Shown here in pieces: positions 1 through 31,983 of a DNA stretch of 31,983 bases. The DNA is from a virus. The notes below the pieces were generated by a model. It searched no databases, was not told where the DNA came from, and saw nothing but the letters and a program-made list of their open reading frames with translations. The DNA lies in the IMG/VR virus record IMGVR_UViG_3300031514_000003, positions 1 through 31,983 of that record. The stretch is one strand, 5' to 3'. The number at the start of each line of letters is the position of its first letter. Within the stretch, counting starts at the first letter, position 1. A program made the translations under genes and the position numbers.

Positions 1-127
1 GCAATGTCGAACACCTAGGTGGACAAATGAATCGGCTACCCAATTACGGCATCCGATCCGATTATACGGCCCGAAATCAGCCGAACTTCTGGGATGATCG
101 CTCCTGGAAGGATCAGTTCCAGAAGCC
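1..127. repeat. Closure overlap, left copy
   Basis: Bases 1-127 are identical to bases 31857-31983. The repeat runs through the start of the first gene, so the fibre gene at the right end continues directly into this gene on a circle. A 127-base overlap equals a common maximum k-mer of short-read assemblers, so I read it as an assembly closure signature rather than a true phage terminal repeat. A biological direct terminal repeat is the alternative. Confidence 0.95.
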
Positions 128-1700
128 AGTCTATGAGTATGTCCGAAAACTTATGCTGGACGGCGGCTATCGGACTGTCCTCGACATCGGCACCGGTTCC
201 GGCTACAAGTTGGTGACCATCCTAGGCCAGTTCGATACCATCGGTACCGAACTGCACCCTACCTATGAGCACCTTCGGCAAACCTATCCGGATCGGAAGT
301 GGCTGCTTTCCGATTTATCGAAGCCCTGCCCGATCCAGGAAGTCGATATCGTGATGGCCGTCGACGTGATCGAGCACCTCCCGAATCCGGATCAGCTGCT
401 GGATTACATTGCCACGATCCGTTGGAAAAAGCTAGTCCTTTCCACGCCGGATCGGGACCAGGCGCGGGGTCCAAACGACCTGGGACCTCCCCAAAACCCC
501 TGCCATGCGAGGGAATGGTATGCCGAGGAGTTCCGCCGCTACGTTGCGCAGTGGTTCCCGGTTGGTTCGCTTCAGCATTGTGGTACTACCATGGTGTTAA
601 CCTGTGAACCGCCAAACCAATCGTCTTCGGGCACGCCAACGCAAACCGCTCTACCTAGCCGCATTTTTCTGATCGGCTATCCCGGCGATGTGGGCGGAGC
701 AGGGACGGAATGCTGGCACACCTTGCTTTTGTGGCGCCGGTTTAACCTACAAGTCGTTTGCATACCTACCTGGGGCAATCCGTGTAACCTATGGCTTAAT
801 CGTGTTAATTTGTTAGGATACCCAACGATTACAACAACCCCTGATAAACTGGCTGATGTGCCAGGCTTAAAAGGTAGTATTGTGGTCAGTTTTTGCAACA
901 GCCAATTTCTGGCCCATGTAGATCGCTTTCGAGACTTAGGTTGCCGGATTGTTTGGGCCGGTTGCATGTGTTGGCTGTTCGACGCCGAACGCCGCCATTA
1001 TGAACGCCGTGGCCCGTTTGATGCCTATGTCTTTCAGAGCCAATATCAACTGGATGTATTGCGACCACCGTTGACGCAGTATGGCGTCCGGCCAGAGCAG
1101 ATGCACCTAGTCCGGGCGGCGTTTATGACGGAAGAGTGGCCGTTCCGGCCTCGGCCTCATAAAAAAGGAGAGCCGCTTGTCGTAGGCCGTATCAGTCGAC
1201 CGGCCCCGGATAAGTTTCATCCGAAAACCTGGTGGATTTATGAGAGGATTCCCCACCCGATACATGCTCGAATCATGGCCTGGGGGCCGGACGTCGAAAA
1301 GAAAATTGGTCCGCCACCTTCCTGGGCGGAAGTCTTGCCCAGCCGGGCGGAAACGGCGCAAGATTTTATCGGCAAACTGCACGTGATGCTGCAAGCCAAT
1401 GGCGGCGCTCAGGAAAACTGGCCTCGAAGCGGCCTAGAGGCCATGGCAACCGGCGTGCCTCTAGTAGTGCCGAATAAATGGGGTTGGCGGGAAATGGTTC
1501 GGCACAGGTTTACTGGCTTTTTAGCCGACACAGAAGAGGAAATGGCCTACTATGCGGCCCGTCTGGCCTATGAGGAAGACCTTCGGCAATTCTTCGCACG
1601 CGCTGCCCGCAAACACCTGGTCGAAAACCTAGCCCGCCCCGAAACGGTCTGGGCCGCTTGGCAAAAGGTATTCCAGTTCTTTGGTAGGGGGGCGCTCTAG
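27..1700 (+). CDS. Methyltransferase-glycosyltransferase fusion protein
   Basis: 557 aa, two enzymes in one chain. Residues about 30-195 look like a class I SAM-dependent methyltransferase, with the SAM-binding motif LDIGTGSG (52-59) and the DVIEHLPNP motif (113-121) typical of Methyltransf_11/23 relatives. Residues about 210-550 look like a GT-B, GT4-type glycosyltransferase, with an early GGAGTE loop (223-228), a GRISRPAPDKFHP stretch (387-399) and an EX7E donor-site motif (E463...E471) followed by EAMATGVPLVVP. The ATG at 27 follows AGGTGG at 17-22, which lies in the perfect palindrome CACCTAGGTG (12-21). On the circle it starts about 80 bp after the fibre stop with no terminator seen, so it is probably co-transcribed with the tail genes. 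The acceptor is unknown; a virion protein is my inference. Confidence 0.85.
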   Translation: MNRLPNYGIRSDYTARNQPNFWDDRSWKDQFQKPVYEYVRKLMLDGGYRTVLDIGTGSGYKLVTILGQFDTIGTELHPTYEHLRQTYPDRKWLLSDLSKPCPIQEVDIVMAVDVIEHLPNPDQLLDYIATIRWKKLVLSTPDRDQARGPNDLGPPQNPCHAREWYAEEFRRYVAQWFPVGSLQHCGTTMVLTCEPPNQSSSGTPTQTALPSRIFLIGYPGDVGGAGTECWHTLLLWRRFNLQVVCIPTWGNPCNLWLNRVNLLGYPTITTTPDKLADVPGLKGSIVVSFCNSQFLAHVDRFRDLGCRIVWAGCMCWLFDAERRHYERRGPFDAYVFQSQYQLDVLRPPLTQYGVRPEQMHLVRAAFMTEEWPFRPRPHKKGEPLVVGRISRPAPDKFHPKTWWIYERIPHPIHARIMAWGPDVEKKIGPPPSWAEVLPSRAETAQDFIGKLHVMLQANGGAQENWPRSGLEAMATGVPLVVPNKWGWREMVRHRFTGFLADTEEEMAYYAARLAYEEDLRQFFARAARKHLVENLARPETVWAAWQKVFQFFGRGAL

Positions 1701-8734: not shown

Positions 8735-10429
8735 ATGAGTCTTCGCCCATATCAACAGGCGGCCGTCCAGGCAGTTTATCATCACTTGCAAACACGAGAC
8801 GACAATCCAGTTGTTGTTCTACCGACAGCGGCCGGGAAAAGCTGGGTGATCGCTCAATTAGTTACCGATACCGTATGCCGTTGGCAAGGTCGGGTTTTAG
8901 TCCTCGCACACGTGAAAGAGTTATTGGAACAAAACGCTGAAAAGATTCAGCGGTTGTGCCCACACGTCTCTATCGGACTATATTCAGCTGGTTTGAATCG
9001 CCGGGATACCGATACACCAGTCCTTATTGCTGGTATTCAATCGGTGTATAAAAAGGCTTATGAGCTAGGGGCATTTGACTTAGTAATCGTCGACGAGGCT
9101 CATCTGATTCCGCCCGATAGTGACAGCATGTATCAAATGCTATTGGCGGCGCTTAAAGAGAACCAACCTTATTTACGCGTGGTAGGACTCACGGCCACGC
9201 CGTTTCGGTTAACAAGTGGACCAATTTGTACGCCAGATGGCATTCTGAATCATATTTGTTACGAAATTAGTATTCGGGAATTGATTCGTGATGGTTACTT
9301 GTGTCCACTCATCACCAAAACGAGCGCGCAGAAAGTGGATTTTCAATCGCTTCGTGTGCACGCTGGAGAATTTATTGCAACGGAAGTCGAACAGCTGATG
9401 GACGAGGATTGGCTGGTTGCGGCTGCCTGCAAAGAAATTCTTATGTATACTCACGACCGGCGAAGCGTATTAGTATTTGCGTCTGGTCGGCAACATGGAC
9501 AACACGTAGCAAAAATATTGAGAGAATTATCCGGGCAAGATATCGGGTTTATTGATAGCCAGACGCCGAGTGCTGAACGCGCCGAATTGATTGCGCGATT
9601 TCGATATGAGACGGCACGCCAAACCCTTTTTGAGCAACCACTCCAACCACTAAAATTTCTGGTGAATGTAAACGTCTTAACGACTGGATTCGATGCGCCG
9701 AATATTGATTGCGTCGCAATTTTGCGGCCTACAATGTCGCCGGGCCTCTGGTACCAAATGGTAGGCCGCGGATTCCGCACTTATCCCGGTAAACAAAATT
9801 GTTTGATTCTCGATTTTGGAGGCAACGCTTTACGGCATGGACCGGTAGACTGTTTAATACTACCACGTGCGCCCGGTCGGGGTGTAGGGGAAGCGTCTGC
9901 TAAAGAATGTCCGCAGTGTCATACAGTGATCGCGCTTGGTTACGCAGCCTGTCCGGATTGCGGCTATCAGTTTCCACCGCCAGAACGCAAACGCCATACC
10001 GCGTCGGCTAGTAGTATTGAGGTACTGTCCGGGCAAGTGAGTGAAACTGAATATGAAGTTTTGGACATTCGGTATGGCGTCTATCAAAAAAGAAATGCGC
10101 CGCCGGGCGCCCCGAATACAATGCGTGTCGAGTATAAGATCGCGAATTCGACTTGGATTTCCGAATGGATTTGTTTCGAGCATACGGGCTATCCGCGCTG
10201 GAAAGCCGAACAGTGGTGGAAGCAGCGCTCACCCGATCCGGTACCGGATACCGCACAGCGCGCTGTTGAAATTGCGCAAGGTGGTGGGTTAGCATATACG
10301 AAAAAAATTCGTGTTCGTTATATCGCTGGTGAAAAATACGAACGGATCGTAGGTTATCAACTCGGCCCAATGCCGGAACCAGTACCTGTAGGGGACACGA
10401 TAGACGATTTGTCCGATATTCCGTTTTGA
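8735..10429 (+). CDS. SF2 DEAH-box helicase with zinc ribbon
   Basis: 564 aa. RPYQQAAVQAV at the N-terminus, Walker A TAAGKS (31-36), DEAH (120-123), TATP (153-156), TTGFDAP (316-322) and QMVGRGFR (341-348) define a two-domain SF2 helicase of the phage/SSL2-RAD25-like type. A CPQC...CPDC zinc ribbon follows (392-409). Residues 430-564 form an extra Trp/Tyr-rich domain ending in an acidic tail (DTIDDLSDIPF), a composition seen in proteins that bind single-strand-binding partners. It probably unwinds or remodels replication and recombination intermediates. Confidence 0.85.
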   Translation: MSLRPYQQAAVQAVYHHLQTRDDNPVVVLPTAAGKSWVIAQLVTDTVCRWQGRVLVLAHVKELLEQNAEKIQRLCPHVSIGLYSAGLNRRDTDTPVLIAGIQSVYKKAYELGAFDLVIVDEAHLIPPDSDSMYQMLLAALKENQPYLRVVGLTATPFRLTSGPICTPDGILNHICYEISIRELIRDGYLCPLITKTSAQKVDFQSLRVHAGEFIATEVEQLMDEDWLVAAACKEILMYTHDRRSVLVFASGRQHGQHVAKILRELSGQDIGFIDSQTPSAERAELIARFRYETARQTLFEQPLQPLKFLVNVNVLTTGFDAPNIDCVAILRPTMSPGLWYQMVGRGFRTYPGKQNCLILDFGGNALRHGPVDCLILPRAPGRGVGEASAKECPQCHTVIALGYAACPDCGYQFPPPERKRHTASASSIEVLSGQVSETEYEVLDIRYGVYQKRNAPPGAPNTMRVEYKIANSTWISEWICFEHTGYPRWKAEQWWKQRSPDPVPDTAQRAVEIAQGGGLAYTKKIRVRYIAGEKYERIVGYQLGPMPEPVPVGDTIDDLSDIPF

Positions 10430-10440
10430 GGAGTCCTGAG

Positions 10441-10809
10441 ATGAACGAATTTCAACCCGATGTGATTGGGGATATTAGTTTCGTACCGCAAGAAGAGTTA
10501 ACTCGTTTTCCAACAGGTGCCGTACGCGGAACGGATGCGAACAATGAGCGCTGGGATTTGATTACGCCAATCGGTCTGCGCCGTTTGGCCGAGACGTGCG
10601 CCGAAGGAGCGCGTAAGTACGGTGATCATAACTGGCTGAAGGGAATACCGGCTAGCGTTATGCTAAATCATGCTATTCGACATATCTATTTGTATCTAGC
10701 TGGCGATACAAAAGAAGACCATCTTGCCCACGCCGCTTGGAATATTTTGGGCGTTTGTCATTTCGAGGAAGTTATGCCTGAAATGATCGATATTCCGACT
10801 CGAAAGTAA
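10441..10809 (+). CDS. dATP/dGTP diphosphohydrolase-like protein (MazZ/DUF5664 family)
   Basis: 122 aa. The ATG at 10441 follows AGGAG (10429-10433) by 7 bp; an upstream TTG at 10426 overlaps the helicase stop and has no site. The pattern ERWDLITPIGLRRLAE..EGARKYGDHNW..G......NHAIRHI......EDHLAHAAWN is that of the dGTP_diPhyd (MazZ) family of all-alpha, MazG-like NTP pyrophosphohydrolases. The family converts dGTP/dATP to the monophosphate. In some phages it feeds 2-aminoadenine synthesis, but no PurZ-like gene occurs here, so general dNTP-pool control is more likely. Confidence 0.75.
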   Translation: MNEFQPDVIGDISFVPQEELTRFPTGAVRGTDANNERWDLITPIGLRRLAETCAEGARKYGDHNWLKGIPASVMLNHAIRHIYLYLAGDTKEDHLAHAAWNILGVCHFEEVMPEMIDIPTRK

Positions 10810-10816
10810 TTGCGCC

Positions 10817-12481
10817 ATGACTGCGTCACTGTTGGACGCTGCCCTCTATTATGCTGAATTGGGATATCCGGTTTTTCCTTGCCGGCCCGGCGAGAAACAG
10901 CCGCTGACGCAGCATGGTTTTTTAGACGCCACGACGGATCCAGTACAAATCCAAGCGTGGTGGAGCCGTTGGCCGGAAGCCAATGTAGCCATTTCCACCT
11001 CTGGCTTATTGGTTATCGATGTGGACATTCAGGCGGCTGGCTGGCCTTCCGATCCGGAGCGCGCCGCACAGCTGGCTGAAGCAGGCGCAATATCCTTAAC
11101 GCCTAGAGGGGGGCGGCACTACCTGTTCCGTCGACCGCCCGGCAAGACGTGGCGTTGTTCGGTTGACCGATTGGCGCCCGGCGTCGATATTCGGACGGAC
11201 GGCGGGTATATTTTAGTACCGCCTTCGCAGACTGGCAAGCGATTGTATGGTTGGGTGCCTGGTCTGGAGCTTAATAAACCCGTCGAAGGGCTACCCGAAC
11301 CCCCTACATGGTTAGTAACGCTTTTAGACGCGCCCGAGACGCCCAGTCCATTTTCCAATACCGATGGATTTTCGGTGCCAGAGGGGCAACGGAATAACAC
11401 GCTGACGCGGTTGGCCGGCACAATGCGTCGGGCCGGTATGACGAAGGCCGAGATTTTAGCGGCTTTACGACAAGTCAATACCGACCGGTGCCGCCCGCCC
11501 CTACCACCCGCCGAGGTCGAACGGATCGCTCAGAGCGTCGCCCGTTACGAACCAAATCAAGCGGCCACTATTCTCGTTCACGGATTGGAAGCGCAGTTGT
11601 CCTCCGGCCCGAACGGTATACGTTTCGTCGGGATTTCGTCCGCCGAGTTGGCGGCAGCCCAATATACGTTAGAGTATCTAGTCGATAATATTTTAGTTCG
11701 TGGACAGCCAGGTATTATGGCCGGTCCGCGGAAAACACTCAAAACAAGTCTTCTGATCGATCTCGCTTTATCCTTGGCCGAAGGGGGTTTGTTTGTAGGG
11801 CGATTCAACGTTTTGGCGCCTGTGCGCGTGGGGATAATGTCCGGAGAATCCGGAGCGGCCACAATACAGGAGACGGCACTACGGATTGCGGCCGCAAAAG
11901 GGCGCTCTCTTACCGAATACGAAAATGTGATTTGGTGTTTCGAGGTGCCGCAGTTAGGCCACGCCTTTCATATGGTGGCACTGGAGGATTTTATCGTAGA
12001 GAATCGACTAGACGTATTGATTCTCGATCCGACGTATTTAATGATGTTAGGATTGGGCGAGGGCGCCAGCAATTTATTTATCGTGGGTCGGTTTTTGAAA
12101 TCGCTTAGCGCATTAACACAGAATACAGGCTGCACGCCTCTTCTGTGTCATCACCTGCGGAAAACTCGAGTCGAACCCTATGAACCACCCGAATTGGACG
12201 ATATTGCGTGGGCTGGATTTCAGGAATTCGTTCGTCAGTGGATTCTCGTTGGGCGAAGGAAAAAATATTTACCAGTCGACGAAGGTTATCACCGGCTTTG
12301 GTTGAACATAGGTGGTTCGGCCGGCCATGGTGGTTTGTGGGGGCTTGATGTTGATGAAGGAACTCGGCAGCAGCCAACCGGTAGGCGTTGGGAGGTTACG
12401 GTCTTAACGGCTCAAGAGGTATATCTGGCCGATCAGGAGTCACAGCGGCGTAGAAAACATAGCACTTGGCAGGGGTTTTAA
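10817..12481 (+). CDS. Primase-polymerase / RepA-like helicase fusion
   Basis: 554 aa. Residues about 5-165 are a bifunctional prim-pol domain: YPVFPCRPGEKQPL, catalytic DVD (68-70), the H101 motif (GGRHYLF) and DIRTDGGYILVPPS. Residues about 187-245 resemble the PriCT-1 helical domain. Residues about 285-500 are an AAA_25/RepA-type ATPase: Walker A AGPRKTLKTS (302-311), Walker B LILDPTYL (401-408) and a CHHLRKTR motif near 444-451. It would make primers (possibly short DNA) and unwind the fork. It is the main replication protein and sits directly before the putative origin. Confidence 0.85.
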   Translation: MTASLLDAALYYAELGYPVFPCRPGEKQPLTQHGFLDATTDPVQIQAWWSRWPEANVAISTSGLLVIDVDIQAAGWPSDPERAAQLAEAGAISLTPRGGRHYLFRRPPGKTWRCSVDRLAPGVDIRTDGGYILVPPSQTGKRLYGWVPGLELNKPVEGLPEPPTWLVTLLDAPETPSPFSNTDGFSVPEGQRNNTLTRLAGTMRRAGMTKAEILAALRQVNTDRCRPPLPPAEVERIAQSVARYEPNQAATILVHGLEAQLSSGPNGIRFVGISSAELAAAQYTLEYLVDNILVRGQPGIMAGPRKTLKTSLLIDLALSLAEGGLFVGRFNVLAPVRVGIMSGESGAATIQETALRIAAAKGRSLTEYENVIWCFEVPQLGHAFHMVALEDFIVENRLDVLILDPTYLMMLGLGEGASNLFIVGRFLKSLSALTQNTGCTPLLCHHLRKTRVEPYEPPELDDIAWAGFQEFVRQWILVGRRKKYLPVDEGYHRLWLNIGGSAGHGGLWGLDVDEGTRQQPTGRRWEVTVLTAQEVYLADQESQRRRKHSTWQGF

Positions 12482-12488
12482 GAGGCTC

Positions 12489-12546
12489 GCTATACGTTTT
12501 AGCCGTCGTTATAGCGATTATTAGGAAAAAAGTGATTTGGATTTCA
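12489..12546 (+). repeat. Diverged direct repeat, copy 1
   Basis: 58 bp, about four-fifths identical by eye to 12679-12737. Shared blocks are GCTATACG, TAGCCGTCG, AGCGAT and GGATTTCA. Internally CGCTATA (12488-12494) faces TATAGCG (12510-12516), so the unit can also fold. Weaker similarity continues for another 40 bp after both copies. Confidence 0.65.
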
Positions 12547-12608
12547 TTTATCGATAGTTTTCGTTAGCTCACGCTATTAGGCGTGAAAAGCAGGATAACG
12601 GTTTAGCT

Positions 12609-12679
12609 CCGGGTTGGAGGGGCGGTAGGGGGATCGATAACTTGCCCGGATTGGGTAGACCGGCCCCTTAACAACCCGG
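12609..12679 (+). repeat. Long-range inverted repeat between the direct repeats
   Basis: CCGGGTTG (12609-12616) pairs perfectly with CAACCCGG (12672-12679), and GGGGCGG (12619-12625) with CCGGCCCC (12660-12667) allowing one bulge. This gives a 71-nt structure whose right arm abuts the second direct-repeat copy. Confidence 0.5.
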
Positions 12680-12737
12680 CTATACGCTATAGCCGTCGCC
12701 AGAGCGATAGTCGGGATACAAGGTGATTCGGATTTCA
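12679..12737 (+). repeat. Diverged direct repeat, copy 2
   Basis: 59 bp related to 12489-12546. It contains a perfect small hairpin, GGCTATA (12678-12684) with TATAGCC (12688-12694) around CGC. The pairing in copy 1 uses different bases, suggesting that structure or a bound protein, not exact sequence, is maintained. Confidence 0.65.
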
Positions 12738-12883
12738 CGAAATAATCAAAATCGTTTGCTAACGTTTATGTGCGATGTTTTCGTTGTCGGCCAAATGGAT
12801 CGGACCATGGTAGGGGGGCAATGACCTGTGGGGGATACACTGCTCCCCCCTCCGTTTAGGGGGCGCCTAGATAAGTAAAATCG

Positions 12884-13085
12884 CGTATATATATAAATAA
12901 TTTTTATATTTATTAATTATATTTATATATATTTATTTATTTACTTATTTATTTATTTACTTATTTCCCCCCAGCTCTCAGCTCTCTTAAAAGAGCTGGA
13001 GCTGGGGGGGAAAGTGAAACAGGAAAATAAAAAATAAAAATAAAAAAATAATTTAAAAAATAAAAAATACTAAAATAAGTATATA
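12884..13085. repeat. AT-rich tract with tandem 16-mers and central GC hairpin
   Basis: 12884-12966 is almost pure A/T and ends in two perfect tandem copies of ATTTATTTATTTACTT (12931-12946, 12947-12962). A hairpin follows: C6AGCTC... (12967-12985) pairs with ...GAGCTGGGGGG (12992-13009) with one bulged T. Then 13011-13085 is almost pure A with scattered T. The strand is T-rich before and A-rich after the hairpin, so the flanks can extend the stem imperfectly into a giant cruciform. It looks like a DNA-unwinding element. Confidence 0.65.
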
Positions 13086-13087
13086 TT
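13082..13087 (+). promoter_or_regulatory. Possible weak promoter -10 (P3)
   Basis: TATATT (13082-13087) lies in GTATATATTATGGGAGG, loosely similar to the -10 regions of P2 and P4 (GTATATA...AGAGGG). No -35 box is evident in the A-rich DNA upstream. It lies 16 bp before the ATG at 13104, so a transcript starting from it would have a very short leader. Confidence 0.3.
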
Positions 13088-13103
13088 ATGGGAGGATCTA
13101 AAT

Positions 13104-13931
13104 ATGCAAGTTACTTGGTTACCAATACAGGATATTACACCTTATAAATTTTCGCCTAATATAAGTGAACAAATTATAGACGCTATTGTATTGTTTATAC
13201 AGAATTTTGGTTTTAAGCAACCTGTTGTTGTTGATTCACAGAAAAATTTAGTTACTGGTTTCGTATACTGGAAAGCAGCTCAAAAACTTAATTTACTCGA
13301 AATTCCCGCCTGCATTCTAACAGATATATCCGATAGTGAATTACAACAGTTGAGACAGGAGGACAGCCAGAAAAATGTGTTAGTCGAATTATGGCACGAA
13401 TTACTGCCTCTTGAACAGATGGTGCTGAAAGAAATTTTACAGCAGTTAAATTTAACTGATCAGCTTAGTCAACTCGAAATTTCACAAACTAATAGTCGAA
13501 AACAAACAAGCTCTCCGAAACGAAGATACACACCCCTAATCCGGGGATTGGTTTATCAGCCGCGGATGACTGAGGCGCCCTCAATTCAGGACCTATATGA
13601 CGATACCGAGTTGAAACTCTTGTTAGCGAAAATTGATACTTGTTCACTTTCGCCAGAATTAGCTTATTTTTTTCGTCTAGCGGCACATCGATTCGTAAGG
13701 TTTCGTTTCGATTTGATTGCGGAATATTACGCCCACGCAGACGAGAAGATTCAGAGGTTGATGCGCGAATTGATTTTAGTGATTGTAGATTCTAACGACG
13801 CGATTACGCGAAACGTCTTACGATTAAGCCAAGAGTTAATTGATCTCATCCTAGAAACAGAAACCAGCAACATGAAAAAGGAAGCCGACTCATGTCTACT
13901 ATCCCCACCGAACGAAGAGCTGGAGTCTTGA
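13104..13931 (+). CDS. ParB-like (ParB/Srx N-terminal domain) protein
   Basis: 275 aa. GGGAGGA (13090-13096) precedes the ATG. Residues about 1-95 follow the ParB/Srx-like fold as used in phages: IQDITPYKFSPN..., then FIQNFGFKQPVVVDSQKNLVTGFVYWKAAQKLNLLEIPACIL, then a DSELQQLRQEDSQKN segment. The usual GHTR motif is altered to GFVYWKAA, so the CTPase/nuclease chemistry of classical ParB may be lost. Residues 150-275 are helical and unassigned. The first 400 bp are much more AT-rich than the neighbouring genes, continuing the AT-rich origin. The end overlaps the glycosyltransferase gene by 40 bp. Confidence 0.65.
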   Translation: MQVTWLPIQDITPYKFSPNISEQIIDAIVLFIQNFGFKQPVVVDSQKNLVTGFVYWKAAQKLNLLEIPACILTDISDSELQQLRQEDSQKNVLVELWHELLPLEQMVLKEILQQLNLTDQLSQLEISQTNSRKQTSSPKRRYTPLIRGLVYQPRMTEAPSIQDLYDDTELKLLLAKIDTCSLSPELAYFFRLAAHRFVRFRFDLIAEYYAHADEKIQRLMRELILVIVDSNDAITRNVLRLSQELIDLILETETSNMKKEADSCLLSPPNEELES

Positions 13932-14788
13932 TTCTTTCTTATCGGCGAGCAGGGAAAATTAGAACACTAAAAGCACTGCAACAAATCAAATGGACTGGAC
14001 CAGTTTATATTGTCGTATCGAGTGATGACGAGCAATTGCCTCAATACCGTGAACTGTATCCTAACCTCTATGTGTTTGATCGGCAGGCAGTACAATGTGA
14101 TTATTACGATAATCTCCCCCCCACCGGTCCTTTAGCTGCCCGAAACAAGGCTTGGGATATCGCGCAGGATTTAGGCTGGACGCACTTTGTGGTGTTGGAT
14201 GATGATTATAAGCATTTTCAAATCTACTCTTTGTGGCCCGGCAACCCGAATCACCATGGCGTGATTCGTTGGGTACCGGAAGGTTGGGGGGATCGCCTAT
14301 TTCATCGGATGTGGGATTTTCTGGACAATACGCCAAAAGTCTTGTGTATCACGTTTTCGCAGACAGGCGACGCAAATCCACAAACGCGACGAAAAATAAT
14401 GCAGACATTTTTCTTACGGACGGATCGACGGTTTGAGTTTGTGGCCCGACTAAATGACGATGTTACGACATATTATGACCTTGGGCTTCGCGGCGAGGTA
14501 GTGATTCAGATTCCAGCTATTATGATATATCAAGGCTGCACGCAATCACAGCCGGGTGGATTAACGGAAGAGTATTTACGTTATGGCACCTACGCAAAAT
14601 CGATGTATACTGTTCTCCGCTGGCCGGCACATTGTAAGGTAGCGTATTTACCACAGGTAGGGCGCGTGCATCATCATATTGTTAGGTATCCGTATCCCTG
14701 TATTATTCGGGAACCGAACGCTCCGGATATAGACGCATTAGATTTGGGTATGAACTGTATATCGATGAGTGTGGAGGAAAAAGAATGA
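13892..14788 (+). CDS. GT-A glycosyltransferase, resembling TET-associated type
   Basis: 298 aa. AAGGAAG (13877-13883) lies within the end of the ParB-like gene. The N-terminus GVLILSYRRAGKIRTLKAL, the segment GPLAARNKAWDIAQDLGWTHFVVLDDDYKHF (79-109; metal-binding DDD 103-105) and the long C-terminal part with conserved His/Tyr residues give a GT-A fold. The arrangement recalls the phage TET-associated glycosyltransferases that decorate modified DNA bases, but I see no TET/JBP or base hydroxymethylase gene. Glycosylation of DNA or of a virion protein are both open. It overlaps the next gene by ATGA (14785-14788). Confidence 0.65.
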   Translation: MSTIPTERRAGVLILSYRRAGKIRTLKALQQIKWTGPVYIVVSSDDEQLPQYRELYPNLYVFDRQAVQCDYYDNLPPTGPLAARNKAWDIAQDLGWTHFVVLDDDYKHFQIYSLWPGNPNHHGVIRWVPEGWGDRLFHRMWDFLDNTPKVLCITFSQTGDANPQTRRKIMQTFFLRTDRRFEFVARLNDDVTTYYDLGLRGEVVIQIPAIMIYQGCTQSQPGGLTEEYLRYGTYAKSMYTVLRWPAHCKVAYLPQVGRVHHHIVRYPYPCIIREPNAPDIDALDLGMNCISMSVEEKE

Positions 14789-15117
14789 TTTATTTGGCGA
14801 GCCCGTATTCACATCCCGATCCGGCAGTACGGCAGAAAAGGTTTGAGGCCGTCTGTCAGGTGGCAGCCGACTTGATTCGCCAAGGTTATATTGTTTTTTC
14901 TCCGATTGCGCATAGTCATGTAATCGCTCAACATGGGTTGCCAACCAATTGGGAATTTTGGGAGGAACAGGACCGACAGTTTATCGCCGCCTGCGATCAA
15001 GTTTGGGTGTTAATGATAGACGGCTGGGAACAAAGCCGTGGAATTCATGCCGAACTCACTCTCGCAAAACAACTGGGGAAACCTATCCGATTTTTGCCGG
15101 GACCAAAAATTGAATGA
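14785..15117 (+). CDS. DUF1937 protein (nucleoside deoxyribosyltransferase-like fold)
   Basis: 110 aa, matching the DUF1937 pattern almost throughout: MIYLASPYSHPDPAVRQKRFEA at the start, GYIVFSPIAHSHVIAQHG (34-51), FWEEQD and the end GWEQSRGIHAELTLAKQLGKPIRFL. The family is related to nucleoside 2-deoxyribosyltransferases, with the Rossmann-like MIYLASPYS strand and the SRG...E motif near the active site. Whether it is catalytic is not known. The start codon overlaps the previous stop, so it is coupled to the glycosyltransferase. A nucleotide or base-handling role would fit that neighbour. Confidence 0.75.
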   Translation: MIYLASPYSHPDPAVRQKRFEAVCQVAADLIRQGYIVFSPIAHSHVIAQHGLPTNWEFWEEQDRQFIAACDQVWVLMIDGWEQSRGIHAELTLAKQLGKPIRFLPGPKIE

Positions 15118-16190: not shown

Positions 16191-17495
16191 ATGAAACACC
16201 AAATCAGTTATTGGCTTACCGGTCTTGGGATTTTGTTAGCGTTTAGTTTAGAGCGTTTCGTTGTTGCCCAGTGTGATAGTGGGGGGTGCCGTGCGCCCAT
16301 ACAAACGCCCAGTATCCAAGGCATGAATACTATACCGCCCAGTCTGGCGGTATGCCGAATTGAAGTGGGAACCGGCCCAGTGAAATCGATCGGTACTGGC
16401 ATGGCCGTTTCGAGTAATGGCCAACAGACTGCAATCTTAACAGCGCGTCATGTGGCGGGGCGAGTTGGTTTGCCGGCTGCAGCGATGTTTCCAGACGGGA
16501 CACGATTGGAAGGACGGACGTCCGTGTTGTGTCATGAAGCAGACGTTGCGATTATCGTAGCCGAAGGCCGTGCGCCACAATTAATTTTGATTGCATCCGA
16601 AACCCCGGCTATGGGTACACTAGTCGCGTATGGAGGATTTGATGGTGGCCGAGGCTGGCAACACCGAATGGGGCGATTGGTCCGGCAAACACTGACTGGT
16701 GATTGGGTGATTACCGGTCCTGCGCGGGGAGGGGATAGCGGTGGACCGGTGTGGACGGCCGCTGGTTTGGTCGGCGTGATTTGGGGTACCGACGGACAGG
16801 AAACGTTGTGTACAAGTTTACCGCAACTGGTGAATTTTTTTGAATCGAAACGCTATATTTTTCCATGGAACGCATGGTTGGAGGACCGGAAGGACGCTCG
16901 ACAACACGGGCAGATATCACCTCCACAGCCAATGCCTCATACTCCGCTTCCTCCAAGCCAGCCGTCTGGACCGAATCCGCCAGTCGTGTTTCCACAACCC
17001 TCTATGGTGCTTCCGGTAGAGTTCGTACAGCGACTCGCTGTTCTCGAATCGAAACTAGCGGCGTTGGAAGTAAAAATTGGCCAATTGGAGGGCACGGTTA
17101 CCGGCTTGGCAACACAGAGCGGCTCGGCGGCAGAAAAAGCCGCCGGTGCCGCTAATCTCGCAGAAGAAGCCAAACGCCACGTTGAGGCAGTAGGCATCAC
17201 GCTGTTAGGACAAGTGAAAAATTATATCCTTGGTTTACTCCCGATTGGTTGGGGAGTACCGATTGTTGTTGTAGTATTTGTTGCTGCTTTTCTTATTTGG
17301 CGAGATGTTCACAACCGAAAGAAAACCGGTGATCCGCTAGAAATCGAAAAACTGTTCCAGCGTTTAGCAGCTAAAACGCCAACACCTATTGACGACTGGT
17401 TGGTCGATAAACTTAGTAAAGCCTTGGACCTGGTCCTACCACGGCCAGCGTCTAGGGAATCTAGCACGTCTGGGAAGAAAGGAAAATCGGTATGA
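16191..17495 (+). CDS. Secreted, membrane-anchored trypsin-like serine protease
   Basis: 434 aa. Residues 1-26 are a signal peptide (hydrophobic YWLTGLGILLAFSL, possible cleavage after VVA26). Residues about 50-220 form a chymotrypsin-fold protease with the full triad: TARHV (H87), EADVAI (D118) and GDSGGP (S183). A Pro-rich linker (242-272), an Ala-rich coiled coil (276-335) and one transmembrane helix (about 354-370) follow, then a basic cytoplasmic tail (371-434). This puts the protease outside the inner membrane. The stop overlaps the next start (ATGA at 17492), tying it to a holin-like protein. It may act in lysis, entry or superinfection exclusion. Confidence 0.85.
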   Translation: MKHQISYWLTGLGILLAFSLERFVVAQCDSGGCRAPIQTPSIQGMNTIPPSLAVCRIEVGTGPVKSIGTGMAVSSNGQQTAILTARHVAGRVGLPAAAMFPDGTRLEGRTSVLCHEADVAIIVAEGRAPQLILIASETPAMGTLVAYGGFDGGRGWQHRMGRLVRQTLTGDWVITGPARGGDSGGPVWTAAGLVGVIWGTDGQETLCTSLPQLVNFFESKRYIFPWNAWLEDRKDARQHGQISPPQPMPHTPLPPSQPSGPNPPVVFPQPSMVLPVEFVQRLAVLESKLAALEVKIGQLEGTVTGLATQSGSAAEKAAGAANLAEEAKRHVEAVGITLLGQVKNYILGLLPIGWGVPIVVVVFVAAFLIWRDVHNRKKTGDPLEIEKLFQRLAAKTPTPIDDWLVDKLSKALDLVLPRPASRESSTSGKKGKSV

Positions 17496-26370: not shown

Positions 26371-26534
26371 ACGATCCCCAGGTGGAGTTTATTTATCATT
26401 TAGCGGCTCGCCTGGGGTACGCAAATCCGGACCAAATGTTGGCTGAAATGGAAGCAGGGCACCTTTTAGACTGGGGTGCTTTTTTAGCGAATGAAGCTAA
26501 ACGAAGGGCTGGGATATGCCAAACGATATTGTAA
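26029..26534 (+). CDS. Tail assembly chaperone, -1 frameshift product (gpG-T-like)
   Basis: The heptamer A_AAA_AAT at 26361-26367 lies in the last two sense codons of the short form. A -1 slip there skips the TAG at 26368 and continues from 26367 to TAA at 26532-26534, adding 55 residues to give about 168 aa. The added part reads LDDPQVEFIYHLAARLGYANPDQMLAEMEAGHLLDWGAFLANEAKR-like (given here in pieces: VEFIYHLAARLGY, LDWGAFLANEAKR), which is the usual gpT-like domain. It has no start codon of its own and overlaps the tape-measure start by 19 bp. The slip itself is inferred from sequence. Confidence 0.8.
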
Positions 26535-28333
26535 TTCACGTTTTGGCTGAAACGAAGAAAGCCATTGACGGGCTCCGACAGACGCAGGAGGAAATCCGGC
26601 GGTTGTCGGAGCAGACGCGTACCTTCACCGGTATGACAGCAGCGTTTACGGGTTGGGCCGCGATTGTGACTACGGCGCTCAACGTAGTGCAACAGGCGTT
26701 TGGGAAGCTCAAGCAATTTCTTCAGGAATGTACTGAGGCGGCCAGCGTGAATATGGAGGCGATGAGGAGATTGAACGCCTCGTTAACGATTTCAGGACGA
26801 TATTCGACCGAGACAGCTAAACAGTTTCAACAATTTGCTGACAGTTTAGCGGCAGTTACTAATTATGCTGGTGCAGAAATTATTCGAGTTGTTGCACATT
26901 TTACTCGGCTGGGTTTAACTGAGGATATTGTTCGGCGGGCCACTAAAGTAACGCTCGATTTTGCCGCTGCGATGGATACGGATCTTCAATCAGCGGCGAT
27001 CGCTGTTGGAAAAGCGCTAGGCGATCCAGAGCGTGGTTTAGTTGCGTTACGTAGACAAGGTGTACTAATTACAACGCAACAACAGGAATTTATCCGAACG
27101 CTAATGGCTTCGCGCCGCGAAATGGAGGCGCAAACTACTATCTTACAGCTTTTGGAAACTCAATATCGTGATTTTGCGGCTCAAGCGTCTAGCGCAGTTA
27201 AGCGCATGGAAAATGAGTGGAACGAACTGAAGGCCGCTTTGGGCGCGTATGTTAACGATTTCAAGGCTGCTTTTGCAACGACAATATTACCTGGGCTCAG
27301 AGAAACACGTCAAGAATTAGAAAAACAGCGCGAAAGCGGTACCAAGGTAACCTTAACATGGCGAGATTATGTGGGGGTCGTTTTGGGAGCCGTCGCTGAA
27401 GCTTTTATTACGAATCGAGATGTTGGAGAGGTGCTTTCTGGAGCATCATATGATGTGGCGATGAAAGGATTCGAACGGCTTATAAACGCGCAGGCTAGCC
27501 GGCCTATTATGTCGAAATCGCTGAAAGAAGCGGAAGAAATACGGCGGCGCCAGCAGCAAGAGTTGGAATACTATCAACGCTTAAACGAAGAAGCAACTAC
27601 GTATTTGAAGCAACTCCAAGAAGAAAACCGTTTACTTGGTATATCGGCTGAATACCGGAAGCTAGCCGAACTTCAAGCTAAAGGTTTATCGGAGGAACTG
27701 GCTGCCCAAATCCAGCAGCAAATCCAACTCAACGAGATCCGTAAAGCTCAATTGAAGGTGGAGGAGAAGTTGGCCGCTCTCCGACAGGAAACACAGATGG
27801 CTCAGATGACCGAAACGCAGAGGAAATTGTGGGAACTCCAACAAGCGGGAGCAACGGCTGCCCAGTTGGAAGAAGCTCGCCAATTATTAGCTATTCAAGA
27901 GCAAATTCGTAAACAGCAAGAAGCCCAAAAACAAGCTCAAGTCGAACAGAATCAAATGGCGAAAGAAGCTGAAGCAATTCGGCGGGACATTATGACTGAA
28001 GAACAACGGATTCTGGAACAAGCGGATCGAGCTAGTAAACTTCTTCAGGCGGGTTTACTAACGCCGCAAGAGTACCTAGCGTATCTGGAAAAACTAAAAG
28101 CGACAATCAAACCGCCGGAAGATTTGGCTCGGCAAGTACAGCAGCAGACACAATTGGCCGCTGCATTGCGCTTTGGTACAACGGAAGCGTATTCGGCTAT
28201 TATGCGTGCGGCCATGATGGCAATCCGTCCCCCGGCGGGAGGTCCACAAGAGCAAGTTGCTCGTAATACACAACAGATCGTCGAACGGCTGGATCGCTTA
28301 ATAGCTACAATCAAACGGCAAGAAGCAATTTGA
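26516..28333 (+). CDS. Tape measure protein
   Basis: 605 aa. The pattern begins with a helical region (IDGLRQTQEEIRRLSEQTRTF) and a hydrophobic segment FTGWAAIVTTALNVVQQAFG (44-63), then a conserved tape-measure part with LDFAAAMDTDLQSAAIAVGKALGDPERGLVALRRQGV (about 148-184). Residues about 340-520 are a long Gln/Glu/Lys-rich coiled coil. At about 0.15 nm per residue, it would set a tail of roughly 90 nm. Its short length suits the small genome. Confidence 0.85.
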   Translation: MPNDIVIHVLAETKKAIDGLRQTQEEIRRLSEQTRTFTGMTAAFTGWAAIVTTALNVVQQAFGKLKQFLQECTEAASVNMEAMRRLNASLTISGRYSTETAKQFQQFADSLAAVTNYAGAEIIRVVAHFTRLGLTEDIVRRATKVTLDFAAAMDTDLQSAAIAVGKALGDPERGLVALRRQGVLITTQQQEFIRTLMASRREMEAQTTILQLLETQYRDFAAQASSAVKRMENEWNELKAALGAYVNDFKAAFATTILPGLRETRQELEKQRESGTKVTLTWRDYVGVVLGAVAEAFITNRDVGEVLSGASYDVAMKGFERLINAQASRPIMSKSLKEAEEIRRRQQQELEYYQRLNEEATTYLKQLQEENRLLGISAEYRKLAELQAKGLSEELAAQIQQQIQLNEIRKAQLKVEEKLAALRQETQMAQMTETQRKLWELQQAGATAAQLEEARQLLAIQEQIRKQQEAQKQAQVEQNQMAKEAEAIRRDIMTEEQRILEQADRASKLLQAGLLTPQEYLAYLEKLKATIKPPEDLARQVQQQTQLAAALRFGTTEAYSAIMRAAMMAIRPPAGGPQEQVARNTQQIVERLDRLIATIKRQEAI

Positions 28334-28363: not shown

Positions 28364-29230
28364 ATGACGTTGACTTGGCGGGAAGTTCATAACCGCGAAG
28401 GCCAGTATAATCTAGATTTTCGGCAGGGACCGTCAGCAACCTTTCGTCGTCTGTGGTTAGTAGAAGCGCCGGCTGGTACTAGTGAACAGACTATTCTCGG
28501 TGATAGCGAGGCACCCAAGCTTGGTGAGGAACTGTCGGAAGGGAGTGGTATTTATTGTGTTCAGGTGCGCGCTACGCCAGTTGGTCAGACTCTATGGCAT
28601 GTGGAGGCTGAGTATACCACTCCTGGCCGTGAAGAGTACCGGCGGCGCGATCCTAACCCGTTAAATTGGGCGGCGCGTATTCGCTGGAGCGCCGTCGTAA
28701 TGCGTATGCCAGTCTGGTATGATCGAGATGGTAATCCAATTCTTAACACGGCGGGTGAACCTTTCGATCCGCCGCTTGAAGTTGACCGAAAATTGCCGGT
28801 CGTAGAAGTGCGGGTTAATATGCCGTATGTACCTTCGTGGATTCTGGGGTATCGTGAAGCTATTAATAGTACTGCGTGGTATATTGATGGTTTAATTGTC
28901 GCAGAAAAATGTGCTATGATGGATAGCATAGAGGTTTCCGAGGTACAGGTTGTAAACAATATTGCATATCGAGAAGTCGCGTATCGAGCGGTGATTGCGC
29001 CAACACTATTAGGTTGGCAGCCACGGATTTTGAATGCTGGGTATAGCGCACTGGTTGGTTCGGCACAGGATAAACAATTAGTACCGATTGTAATTAACGG
29101 TACCACACCTTCCCATCCGGTACCATTAGATCGGCATGGCCGTCGAATCTATAAACCAACGCCAGAGAATGTAGTTTGGCTTACGTTTAACGTATATCCG
29201 GAACTGGATTTTAATGTACTGCCTAGGTGA
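28364..29230 (+). CDS. Hypothetical tail-tip/structural protein
   Basis: 288 aa. AAAGG lies before the ATG at 28364. The sequence is beta-rich and aromatic: a repeated Trp-containing strand pattern and an ordered DRDGNPILNTAGEPFDPP loop (about 124-142). Between the tape measure and fibre genes one expects distal-tail and tail-hub proteins. The length and beta content agree with such a role, but there is no motif I can name. No signal or membrane segment is seen. Confidence 0.6.
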   Translation: MTLTWREVHNREGQYNLDFRQGPSATFRRLWLVEAPAGTSEQTILGDSEAPKLGEELSEGSGIYCVQVRATPVGQTLWHVEAEYTTPGREEYRRRDPNPLNWAARIRWSAVVMRMPVWYDRDGNPILNTAGEPFDPPLEVDRKLPVVEVRVNMPYVPSWILGYREAINSTAWYIDGLIVAEKCAMMDSIEVSEVQVVNNIAYREVAYRAVIAPTLLGWQPRILNAGYSALVGSAQDKQLVPIVINGTTPSHPVPLDRHGRRIYKPTPENVVWLTFNVYPELDFNVLPR

Positions 29231-29236
29231 TCACTG

Positions 29237-31804
29237 ATGGCTATACTGCGACGTGAAACCGCAAAACGTCTTATTGATGTCGCTCAACAAGTTGAAGGCC
29301 GCCGGCAGCTTCAGCCTCATCGGATTAAGATGCCGAAAGGAGGTGATATTAGTATATGGTTTGACGGTGTGGTGGGGCAAGTGGATCGTACATCTAGACC
29401 TTGGCGTACGAAAGTCCACCGATTGGATGTGCGACAGTGGGGGGGTCCGTTTCCAGAATGTGATGAGGAGGGCTGGTTAGTTGCGCCGATTCTTGCGTTA
29501 ATTGATGCACCCGTGTTTCTTAACCGTGAAAGATACTCTTGGCCTTCCGACGCTCTGTTGCCGGGATGTGAAATTTTATGTTGTTGGAACACAGGGGAGC
29601 GTGCTTGGTGTGTTCTTATGGCGTGGCCGCCGGAGGCAGTGTATTTAGAAGAACCGCTCCGCGATCATGGTATAGCGAAAGGCGTTGTAGTTGCTCAATA
29701 TTTTAAGAGTTTAAGCGAAGGGCGGCAAACACAAGAGTATGAAGTTAGGATATCCGACCCCAAGGGGCGCGTGTGCCAGAGTCAATATTGTCGCTGGAGT
29801 GATGAATATGGTTGGCATATACCACCGCATGTAGGTAATCTTTCTCATGAAATATATCCATTTGGTTATAATCGTGGGGAAATACCCGTATTCTTTTTTC
29901 GGGGACCACATGATTCTCCAGCTACATGGACACAAACGCGGATTGCACACCGTTATCAGGATAACGAACTGCATGTTGATGGTACGCCCCTTCAACATCG
30001 GAGTATACCTCGGCATAATGAATGGTTACCGTTTAAGGCACGATGGGGTGGAACGTGGGGGCCGCCTAAAATACGGGAGGAGCACGTTCCAGTTTTTTAC
30101 GATCCACAACATCACGAAATAATTGTACCGTGCCAGCATGGTGGGATATCGGATCGAAGTATTGATACGGGTTGGGTGTCGCTTCACGTTTCTGAAGGCC
30201 ATATTGTGGAGGTTGGTCCCAGTGAATATCCTGGTCTAATCAACGTAGGTGGCAATTTTGTGCCTCCAGGAGCGGCGGGGCGGTATTTCCACTGGCCCGG
30301 CTGGTGGTGGGGCATGCCACAATGGCGACACGGTCAGAATCCTGACTGGTGGATTCGCTGGGTGCCGTTACCGAATAATCCGCAGCAAGGCCGATGGGTG
30401 ATTGGTCAGTGGCCCAACGATGCTCAGCCGGGGCAGCCTCCACAACGTGGTTGGGGGCATCGCCCGCCGGCAGAAGGCCGACCGCCGAATAAAAATCCTA
30501 TTGATGAATTTCCAGATCGTATTGGCGATGTGGAGGGAACAGCACGCACAAAGACTGCCGACTATATCCTTCAGGATTGCGCTGATCCTAATCATTTTGT
30601 AGAGTTACTTCGTTCTGGCTGGTACCATTGGACGGTATATCAAGCGATCAAATGGAAAGACGCGCGTGGTGATGTACATTGTGGAACGGTCGTGGATTCG
30701 CCGGTCAATGCTGAAAAAGTGCGCTGGTGGTTTTTTATCAGTAGGACGTGGGATTGTTCGCTTTGTAGCGGTGACGTTATAGTTGCGGATTGCGAGCAAC
30801 CACAAAATACTTATCGTCTTCAGGGGTCTGGTACACTCGGTTTACGGCCTGGACAAATCATCATTTGGGTTGATCATCTTGGTGCCCAAGGAGAGGAAGT
30901 ACATTATGGTATCGTACAAGATGAGGGGGTACTTTGGACGTACGACATAAGTTTTGGCGCGTGGTCATTCGTACAGGTTATCGACCGGTGTCCACAATCT
31001 TCGTCGAGTGAATCCTCGGAATCCTCGGAATCCTCGGAGTCCTCGGAATCGTCTGGGGCGCCCGAAGAGTATCCGGATTGTATTTATGTGGACGGCGAGA
31101 ATATCGGTTTTACGGTACGTGGCCAGTATTTGCGGCTTGATGGTAATTATAAGGGTAAACCGCAATGGCGACACGTTATGTTTACGACGTGGCATATTCG
31201 TTGGACTGGTTCGTATTGGGTAATTGGTTCCTGGCCGGAAGGGTACGAGGGCGATCCGTTGGAATCTTGGGTCCGGTTGGGTGATGGTGGACCTCTTGGA
31301 GAATATTATCGCGGCATTGAGCCTGGAGGTCTTGCGATCGCTGATTACTGTCCGTCCAGTTCGGAGTCGAGTTCAGAATCCAGCAGCGAGAGCAGCTCTG
31401 AATCCAGTTCTGAAAGCAGTTTGGAGAGTAGCTCGGAATCGAGCAGTGAAAGCAGCTCTGAATCCAGCAGTGAAAGCAGTTCGGAATCCAGTTCGGAGAG
31501 CAGCTCCGAATCGAGTTCGGAGAGTAGTTTTGAATCGAGCTCGGGATCAAATCTAGAGTACTGTACCATTTTCTATCGTTGCGGAGATAATAGCGGACCG
31601 TACTATGCGGTCGGTTATTATAGCCCTGGTGTTTATTATTATTCGTACACCGGTGAGTATTACCGTGTTGATAGTTACAGCTATGGCAGTATAGGTTTCC
31701 AACTTGATAGCAGCGGGTTGTTTTACTACGGTTCGGAGTGCCCACACAGCGGCTCCGAACCCGGCTGGGAATCCAGCTCCGAACCCGGCTGGGAACCCCC
31801 CTGA
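29237..31804 (+). CDS. Tail fibre/adhesin with Ser-Glu repeat arrays
   Basis: 855 aa. AGGTG lies before the ATG at 29237, 6 bp after the previous stop. Residues 1-585 are Trp/Tyr-rich and probably beta, including a Trp module at 348-393 (G-Y...PQWRH...W-IRW...WVIG-WP). A first ESS array (588-606) links to a second Trp module (629-667). A long SSSE array (707-769) leads to a Tyr-rich tip (770-855) ending in two SEPGWE repeats. The arrangement suggests an adhesin with flexible or glycosylated stalks. The stop is TGATAA at 31802-31807. Confidence 0.75.
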   Translation: MAILRRETAKRLIDVAQQVEGRRQLQPHRIKMPKGGDISIWFDGVVGQVDRTSRPWRTKVHRLDVRQWGGPFPECDEEGWLVAPILALIDAPVFLNRERYSWPSDALLPGCEILCCWNTGERAWCVLMAWPPEAVYLEEPLRDHGIAKGVVVAQYFKSLSEGRQTQEYEVRISDPKGRVCQSQYCRWSDEYGWHIPPHVGNLSHEIYPFGYNRGEIPVFFFRGPHDSPATWTQTRIAHRYQDNELHVDGTPLQHRSIPRHNEWLPFKARWGGTWGPPKIREEHVPVFYDPQHHEIIVPCQHGGISDRSIDTGWVSLHVSEGHIVEVGPSEYPGLINVGGNFVPPGAAGRYFHWPGWWWGMPQWRHGQNPDWWIRWVPLPNNPQQGRWVIGQWPNDAQPGQPPQRGWGHRPPAEGRPPNKNPIDEFPDRIGDVEGTARTKTADYILQDCADPNHFVELLRSGWYHWTVYQAIKWKDARGDVHCGTVVDSPVNAEKVRWWFFISRTWDCSLCSGDVIVADCEQPQNTYRLQGSGTLGLRPGQIIIWVDHLGAQGEEVHYGIVQDEGVLWTYDISFGAWSFVQVIDRCPQSSSSESSESSESSESSESSGAPEEYPDCIYVDGENIGFTVRGQYLRLDGNYKGKPQWRHVMFTTWHIRWTGSYWVIGSWPEGYEGDPLESWVRLGDGGPLGEYYRGIEPGGLAIADYCPSSSESSSESSSESSSESSSESSLESSSESSSESSSESSSESSSESSSESSSESSSESSFESSSGSNLEYCTIFYRCGDNSGPYYAVGYYSPGVYYYSYTGEYYRVDSYSYGSIGFQLDSSGLFYYGSECPHSGSEPGWESSSEPGWEPP
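30278..30415 (+). repeat. Trp-rich module, copy 1
   Basis: Codes for residues 348-393 of the fibre. Shared pattern with 31121-31237: G-Y, a few residues, G, PQWRH, a spacer, W-IRW, a spacer, WVIG-WP. The identity is at the protein level; the DNA is diverged. Confidence 0.6.
30998..31054 (+). repeat. ESS repeat array 1
   Basis: Five 9-nt units of nearly identical sequence (TCCTCGGAA) give Ser-Ser-Glu repeats at residues 588-606. The near-identity of the units suggests recent expansion by slippage, unlike the long array 2. Confidence 0.8.
31121..31237 (+). repeat. Trp-rich module, copy 2
   Basis: Codes for residues 629-667, between the two Ser-Glu arrays, and repeats the PQWRH...W-IRW...WVIG-WP pattern of 30278-30415 in a shorter form. 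Confidence 0.6.
31355..31543 (+). repeat. SSSE repeat array 2
   Basis: About 16 units of a 12-nt Ser-Ser-Ser-Glu repeat (residues 707-769), with single Leu and Phe interruptions. Serine codons alternate freely between AGY and TCN families, so selection has kept the amino-acid pattern while the DNA diverged. Confidence 0.85.
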
Positions 31805-31846
31805 TAATCCAGCAGTGAAAACAGCTTAGAATCCAGCCTGGCATAG
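31805..31846 (+). pseudogene. Relic of SSSE repeat after the fibre stop codon
   Basis: Directly after TGA (31802-31804) and TAA (31805-31807) the same frame continues TCC AGC AGT GAA AAC AGC TTA GAA TCC AGC CTG GCA, reading SSSENSLESSLA, then TAG (31844-31846). This is decayed Ser-Glu repeat DNA beyond the present end of the gene. It shows that the fibre was once longer, or that the array ended here before the SEPGWE tail was formed. Stop readthrough is a less likely alternative. Confidence 0.7.
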
Positions 31847-31856
31847 CGTTCTCCAT

Positions 31857-31983
31857 GCAATGTCGAACACCTAGGTGGACAAATGAATCGGCTACCCAAT
31901 TACGGCATCCGATCCGATTATACGGCCCGAAATCAGCCGAACTTCTGGGATGATCGCTCCTGGAAGGATCAGTTCCAGAAGCC
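31857..31983. repeat. Closure overlap, right copy (with truncated gene copy)
   Basis: Exact copy of bases 1-127. It holds the first 101 bases of the methyltransferase-glycosyltransferase gene (ATG at 31883), which should not be counted as a second gene. The non-redundant genome ends at 31856. Confidence 0.95.

Follow-up and report, generated by a model that had tools for sequence, protein, structure and literature searches.

Mycobacteriophages (Che8 and relatives) carry virion glycans which are attached by phage-encoded glycosyltransferases (Freeman et al. 2023, via PMC11256854 and PMC12619734). These glycans are reported at the C-termini of capsid and tail-tube subunits (PMC11256854, PMC12619734). 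The PBCV-1 protein A064R, which has a glycosyltransferase-glycosyltransferase-methyltransferase (GT-GT-MT) organisation, assembles a virion-protein glycan and adds O-methyl groups to it (PMC9614988). In bacteria, serine-rich repeat (SRR) adhesins are glycosylated by glycosyltransferases encoded alongside them (GtfA/GtfB, with the accessory Sec system; PMC6973325). Polyserine linkers have been described in Saccharophagus, marine polysaccharide-degrading bacteria (PMC2386152). Here we compare these systems with a circular phage contig on which a methyltransferase-GT4 fusion gene follows a tail fibre with Ser/Glu arrays, a cassette which probably O-glycosylates the fibre.

The fusion enzyme and its place on the circular contig

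The window, which is the whole stretch of 31,983 nucleotides analysed here, is a closed circular viral contig. Its bases 1-127 are identical to bases 31857-31983, and this terminal direct repeat closes the circle and joins the fibre gene to the fusion gene. The window genes include those for an HK97-type portal, capsid, Clp-type protease, terminase and tape measure protein. The host is probably a hot-spring planctomycete, judging from relatives in the Thermoguttaceae. Three genes on the + strand lead up to the junction: the tape measure gene (26516-28333; PF06791 and PHROG tail length tape measure), a 288-aa tail protein gene (28364-29230; aligned in A2 with the conserved tail protein which precedes the fibre/GT4 genes of relatives), and an 855-aa tail fibre gene (29237-31804; assigned from its ORF, its position after the tape measure and tail protein genes, and homology). 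The fibre stop (31804) is separated from the ATG of the fusion (27, equal to 31883) by 78 bp on the same strand. The preliminary description had placed the fusion directly after a Ser-rich fibre on the circle, and the 127-bp repeat, the 78-bp gap and the common strand bear this out.

The fusion gene (27-1700, + strand) encodes 557 aa and starts with an ATG preceded by an AGGTGG Shine-Dalgarno-like stretch. Its N-terminal part (aa 1-200, 27-626, + strand) is a class I SAM methyltransferase domain of the Methyltransf_23/11 type, also recognised from relatives. The Pfam match covers aa 49-183 (E = 9e-7), with Methyltransf_23 reaching 29.1 bits against a cut-off of 27, and the SAM methyltransferase 3cgg was matched with E = 2e-4. 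The SAM-binding DxGxGxG motif is intact (DIGTGSG), and the domain thus has both a score above the Pfam cut-off and the motif by which class I membership was judged. The C-terminal part (aa 209-557, 651-1697, + strand) is a GT4 glycosyltransferase domain, for which three features agree: a Glycos_transf_1 (PF00534) match at aa 463-529 with 32.9 bits against a gathering cut-off of 26.4, the E-x7-E motif, and a GT-B fold in the model. The motifs ENWPRSGLE (E-x7-E) and GGAGTE are intact and conserved across relatives, and both Glu residues of E-x7-E are invariant in alignments A1 and A7. In the AlphaFold model the GT-B domain is confident (pLDDT mostly about 90 or more), and a Foldseek search with it gave HepE, BshA, PglA and TarM as the best solved matches. 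The methyltransferase half was modelled poorly (pLDDT mostly below 50) because the alignment was too shallow, with too few relatives. The fusion thus has the appearance of an enzyme which could both transfer a sugar and methylate it.

The same fusion is found in a second assembly (L003, 49-1722) with 96% identity, and is therefore not a frameshift artefact; together with the ORF and the two Pfam domains above cut-off, this confirms the methyltransferase-glycosyltransferase fusion of the preliminary description. The 8.6 kb which follow are 100% identical between the two assemblies. Within the gene there are about 55 differing sites, and the non-synonymous codons number 16 in the methyltransferase and only 3 in the GT domain. 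Such divergence beside 8.6 kb of identity may reflect local diversification, recombination or mixed assembly. A tblastn search of INPHARED (50,697 phage records) gave no match to the methyltransferase-GT4 fusion.

The window also encodes a TET-associated glycosyltransferase (TAGT; 13892-14788, PF20691, E = 6e-25; PHROG beta-glucosyl-HMC-alpha-glucosyltransferase), which follows a ParB-like gene; this pair (13104-14788) may serve DNA glycosylation. Two further genes of the region 10426-15117, one with a dATP/dGTP diphosphohydrolase-type domain (PF18909) at 10426 and a DUF1937/nucleoside deoxyribosyltransferase-like gene at 14785, may have a role in the nucleotide pool or in base modification. 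A trypsin-like protease (16191-17495), hydrophobic over a stretch at its C-terminal end, lies between the early and the packaging genes, which is unusual for a phage. The presence of a TAGT gene after a ParB-like gene in a phage, and the fact that some phage GT-B enzymes modify DNA, could mean that the fusion takes part in DNA base hypermodification together with TAGT. This is highly improbable, since the TAGT gene has other genes around it and is about 13 kb away, no match to TAGT (PF20691) or to DNA-GT families was obtained with the fusion, and the GT4 relatives adjoin fibres and not DNA-modification genes. A DNA modification role for the fusion was rejected because it has no linkage to the TAGT gene.

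The Ser/Glu arrays of the fibre

Two Ser/Glu arrays are found in the fibre, both encoded on the + strand. Array 1 spans aa 588-606 (19 aa, SSSSESSESSESSESSESS; 30998-31054). Array 2 spans aa 707-771 (65 aa; 31355-31549) and consists of 16 units of SSSE type; Ser accounts for 47 of its residues and Glu, at each fourth position, for 15. Their sum of about 84 residues agrees with the roughly 80 residues of Ser/Glu repeats first noted. Between the arrays lies a folded domain (aa 613-705; 31073-31351, + strand) homologous to the L069 fibre, and array 2 is followed by a C-terminal domain (aa 775-835, CTIFYRCGDNSGPYYAVG...; 31559-31741, + strand) common to the L069 and L005 fibres. Decayed SSSE units (SSSENSLESSLA; 31808-31846, + strand) continue past the fibre stop in the same frame. 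The distal half of the fibre, arrays included, is homologous to the G033 fibre (E = 8e-29). A comparable Ser-rich stretch is present in only 2 of 458 background viral genes, taken from upstream of the tail protein.

Array 2 uses all six Ser codons, and neighbouring 12-nt units differ by 40 synonymous versus 5 non-synonymous codon changes; random single steps in the array units would be expected to be 19% synonymous. The protein sequence of the array is therefore under selection. Across relatives, Ser is kept at 38-65% of the arrays, next to a partner residue that can be E, G, P, A or D. Constant Ser with a changing partner fits a need for Ser hydroxyls, and would equally fit a flexible linker. 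Thr is nearly absent (T/S of 0.11 or less), which counts against glycosylation of the arrays, as a generic O-glycosyltransferase would not require such scarcity. The arrays sit between folded domains at homologous positions. This placement would suit a different reading, in which the enzyme decorates the virion on the tail protein or on a folded domain of the fibre, with the arrays serving as flexible, hydrophilic linkers (cf. the polyserine linkers of marine cellulases) or S-x-x-E phosphorylation sites. We consider an acceptor outside the arrays rather unlikely in view of the distribution of sugar enzymes given below.

The DNA pattern of the SSSE array, searched in 119 planctomycete genomes, matched a tail-module fibre only in G003, because the arrays of other relatives have a different partner residue. 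When the full-length fibre, the capsid and the tape measure protein of the window were used as IMG/VR queries, no matches were obtained, and co-occurrence was therefore followed by family-wide GT4 and tail-protein searches. One Ser-rich fibre found in a viral relative (L123:3372-5969) has a helical segment at its end (VEHYYEVSPKIVAAIER...), which resembles the CFI-box C-terminal domain.

Ser-rich fibres and sugar enzymes in related loci

GT4 relatives, mostly full-length and 43-78% identical, were found in 27 of the 119 genomes (family of a Thermoguttaceae MAG) and at 22 loci in IMG/VR, and none was found in INPHARED. Many planctomycete-type phages carry such a relative at the tail end, in the recurring order of tape measure, tail protein (about 261-295 aa), Ser-rich fibre and GT4; the tail proteins of the relatives and the window align. 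Among the 18 non-redundant IMG/VR loci with upstream sequence, 12 have a Ser-rich fibre ahead of GT4 (directly upstream in 8, at most two genes away in 4), to be compared with the 2 Ser-rich genes among 458 of the background; six loci have no such fibre, and a nineteenth, ambiguous locus is left out; this count overstates independence because L119-L121 are close relatives, as are L123 and L136. The tail protein has 413 viral relatives. In the tail-protein-anchored viral set A4, the gene after the tail protein was a Ser-rich fibre in all 14 GT4+ loci.

GT4 was also found without Ser arrays, in the viral tail modules L118, L124, L125, L126 and L135, in a sixth viral locus which has no tail homologue nearby (L117), and in about nine chromosomal modules (including L042, L045, L050, L051, L055 and L056). 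The arrays are therefore not an obligate acceptor. The co-occurrence for which the preliminary description proposed to search related genomes thus holds for 12 of 18 IMG/VR loci but fails in six viral and about nine chromosomal ones. The case which it had named as counter-evidence, an enzyme without a Ser-rich fibre, exists for the GT4 half. No array-free methyltransferase-GT4 fusion was seen, with two fusions known, one of them on the L003 contig, which stops short of the fibre.

These array-free modules, and the existence of Ser-rich tail extensions without any nearby GT (L104-L107), favour an acceptor outside the arrays. Against this, sugar enzymes accompany the Ser-rich fibre in every one of the 25 scored Ser+ viral loci, even where the enzyme belongs to an unrelated family. 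With ORFs of our own choosing and about 10 Ser per 20 residues as the threshold, a GT was present in 25/25 Ser+ versus 7/12 Ser- viral loci (raw Fisher p = 0.0018), and in 6/12 Ser+ versus 9/27 Ser- chromosomal loci (p = 0.26). Counting the eight ambiguous loci against the association gave p = 0.22, and only two phylogenetically independent pairs were informative, both in favour and not significant. The Ser-fibre/GT statistics thus weaken once kinship is considered.

When the 37 window genes were compared with the G002, G033 and G003 modules, the matches were GT4 (E = 2e-197), the fibre (E = 8e-29) and one marginal gene (E = 3e-5). Against more distant GT4 viruses, GT4 was the sole matching window gene. 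Since the nearest relatives have hardly any genes in common with the window beyond the fibre tip and GT4, these two behave as one unit. This sharing bears on whether the fusion instead remodels a host surface glycan, for receptor masking or superinfection exclusion, and is simply carried along as the last part of the late operon. Phage seroconversion GTs do remodel the host surface glycan, GT4 enzymes often use lipid- or polysaccharide-linked acceptors, the PDB relatives include HepE, PglA and TarM, and some members of the family (e.g. L046/L047) are found in host loci which lack tail genes. Host-glycan remodelling is nevertheless unlikely, as the enzyme keeps a fixed same-strand place beside the fibre in many separate viral contigs, the fibre tip and GT are common to otherwise unrelated phages, and no flippase, polymerase or membrane anchor was recognised with the fusion.

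The domains joined to GT4 differ among relatives. L005 encodes a GT2-GT4 protein, with GT2 in the place of the methyltransferase, directly after a 636-aa Ser-rich fibre. In G033 the Ser-rich fibre is followed after 7 bp by GT4 without a partner, on a contig which stops 36 residues into it. Pairings of a GT with a methyltransferase recur: L049 has GT4-Methyltransf_24, L121 a GT25-Methyltransf_24 fusion adjoining GT4, and L218 GT2-MT24-TOD1. GT4 is therefore a conserved core to which various partners, the methyltransferase of the window among them, are attached. In the viral locus L004 (8660-17660), the GT4/tail module is followed by NeuB, a cytidylyltransferase, Sulfotransfer_4 and several GTs, and the cassette further contains B12-radical SAM, GT2/GT92-like and galactosyltransferase-like genes. 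Long N-terminal GT4 "fusions" in L046, L047, L053, L054 and L057 were discarded as out-of-frame readings of the upstream gene.

Unrelated sugar enzymes occupy the same slot in seven viral loci which lack GT4 but have a Ser-rich gene following that of the tail protein. These are a GT25 fused to a sulfotransferase (L172), GT25 plus a GT8/capsule-type enzyme (L186), Mannosyl_trans3 plus an FkbM methyltransferase (L178 and L190) and Mannosyl_trans3 (L183); L192 (by tally) and L207 (by near-identical ORF starts) look like the other GT4-free Ser+ loci. Among Ser- loci, five (L169, L180, L196, L215 and L225) had no GT at E = 0.001 and a single FkbM methyltransferase, and L210 and L218 have GT2 enzymes. 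The fusion might also be a passenger (moron) gene at a tolerated tail-end site, functionally unconnected with the fibre; tail modules can be followed by host genes and unrelated GTs, and the kinship-corrected statistics are weak. We regard a passenger as quite improbable, because several families have repeatedly supplied an enzyme of this class and the fibre tip plus GT are common as a unit. A pairing that is kept, or else replaced by unrelated sugar enzymes in the same place, suggests that these viruses may sugar-coat their own tail fibres.

Other arrangements were observed past the tail module. Eight loci (L205, L208, L211, L212, L223, L224, L229 and L188) have a second Ser-rich protein (YFLYIPVWAT...) 2-4 kb past the tail protein, in some of them after a methyltransferase and an MptE-like/CST-I-like gene of uncertain nature, and the genes scanned in this group include some with Hint/intein domains. 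On the viral contig L225 (7673-13331), the tail module runs straight into type I restriction-modification genes and a gene for an Abi_C protein. Of the 119 Thermoguttaceae-family genomes, 58 have a tail module (L041-L115), each with a single copy of the tail protein, and host genes often come directly after the module; it is possibly a domesticated or gene-transfer-agent-like element.

Proposed function and comparison with known systems

We give an even chance to the reading that the fusion is a phage-encoded virion-glycosylation enzyme, whose GT4 domain acts on the Ser arrays of the upstream fibre and whose methyltransferase acts on the sugar. In the proposed mechanism, the GT4 domain would take a sugar from a nucleotide donor and attach it to Ser hydroxyls of the arrays, and the methyltransferase domain would O-methylate, and so cap, that sugar or a neighbouring one. 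The fibre would be modified in the host cytoplasm before assembly, with the arrays as the preferred but not the only GT4 acceptor. No nucleotide-sugar synthesis gene was recognised among the scanned window ORFs. The activity, donor, acceptor and methyl position are predicted from the gene sequences, as is the benefit, which may lie in shielding, in extended arrays or in receptor choice. That the fusion acts on the Ser arrays, as first proposed, gains from the conserved pairing, the shared unit and the same-slot sugar enzymes, and loses from GT4 enzymes without arrays.

More generally, a variable glycan cassette may end the tail module in planctomycete-type phages, with GT4 as its common core and methyltransferase, GT2, GT25, sulfotransferase, FkbM methyltransferase or NeuB/CTP_transf as swapped partners. 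Somewhat short of an even chance, these phages share a widespread mucin-like system, in which Ser-rich fibres would be densely O-glycosylated by a swappable adjoining cassette and the tip and cassette exchanged together. The cassette would draw on GT4, GT25, mannosyltransferase-like enzymes, sialic-acid-like synthesis, sulfotransferases and sugar methyltransferases, and the system would be a phage counterpart of the bacterial serine-rich-repeat glycoproteins. If true, it would offer a testable use of sugars on the host-binding parts of phages (shielding, receptor choice or fibre extension) and a set of GTs, each with a probable protein acceptor encoded alongside. To our knowledge, only a few phages are known to glycosylate their virions with enzymes of their own. 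Among the papers searched, few of them from subscription journals, none described glycosylated Ser-rich fibres for phages of planctomycetes. The system cannot be called undescribed as a whole, however, because phage-encoded virion glycosylation is known in mycobacteriophages (Freeman et al. 2023, via PMC11256854 and PMC12619734).

The locus resembles the mycobacteriophage systems in having a phage-encoded GT, and some relatives have Ser-rich segments at tail-protein C-termini. It differs in that a fibre bearing long Ser arrays is the candidate acceptor, that a methyltransferase is fused to the GT, that its glycans are predicted, and that tblastn found no homologous GT in the known phages of INPHARED. 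With chlorovirus PBCV-1 A064R it has in common a single virus-encoded polypeptide with GT and class I methyltransferase domains. However, A064R is GT-GT-MT, has a GT-A fold in its first domain and acts on an N-glycan, whereas the fusion is MT-GT4 (GT-B) and its product would probably be O-linked.

The SRR adhesins resemble the present case in that a Ser-rich repeat protein is encoded beside a GT (at 78 bp here, and repeatedly in relatives), and GtfA is also a GT4-type enzyme. The GtfA/B add-on domain (DUF1975) had no Pfam match in the fusion at E up to 0.1, and no SecA2, SecY2 or Asp genes were found among the Pfam-scanned window genes, which comprise all but some small ORFs. In SRR adhesins Ser alternates with Ala, Val or Thr and the protein is secreted, whereas the window has SSSE repeats in a virion protein. 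The polyserine linkers of Saccharophagus are likewise long Ser-rich stretches between folded domains, but they belong to secreted enzymes and not to virion fibres, and we know of no pairing of such linkers with a glycosyltransferase gene. The fusion and its fibre therefore have principles of the mycobacteriophage, A064R and SRR systems and are a member of none. Virion glycosylation encoded by phages and viruses is already known from the mycobacteriophages and PBCV-1 A064R, and on the best reading a methyltransferase-GT4 enzyme beside a Ser-array fibre would be a variant thereof.
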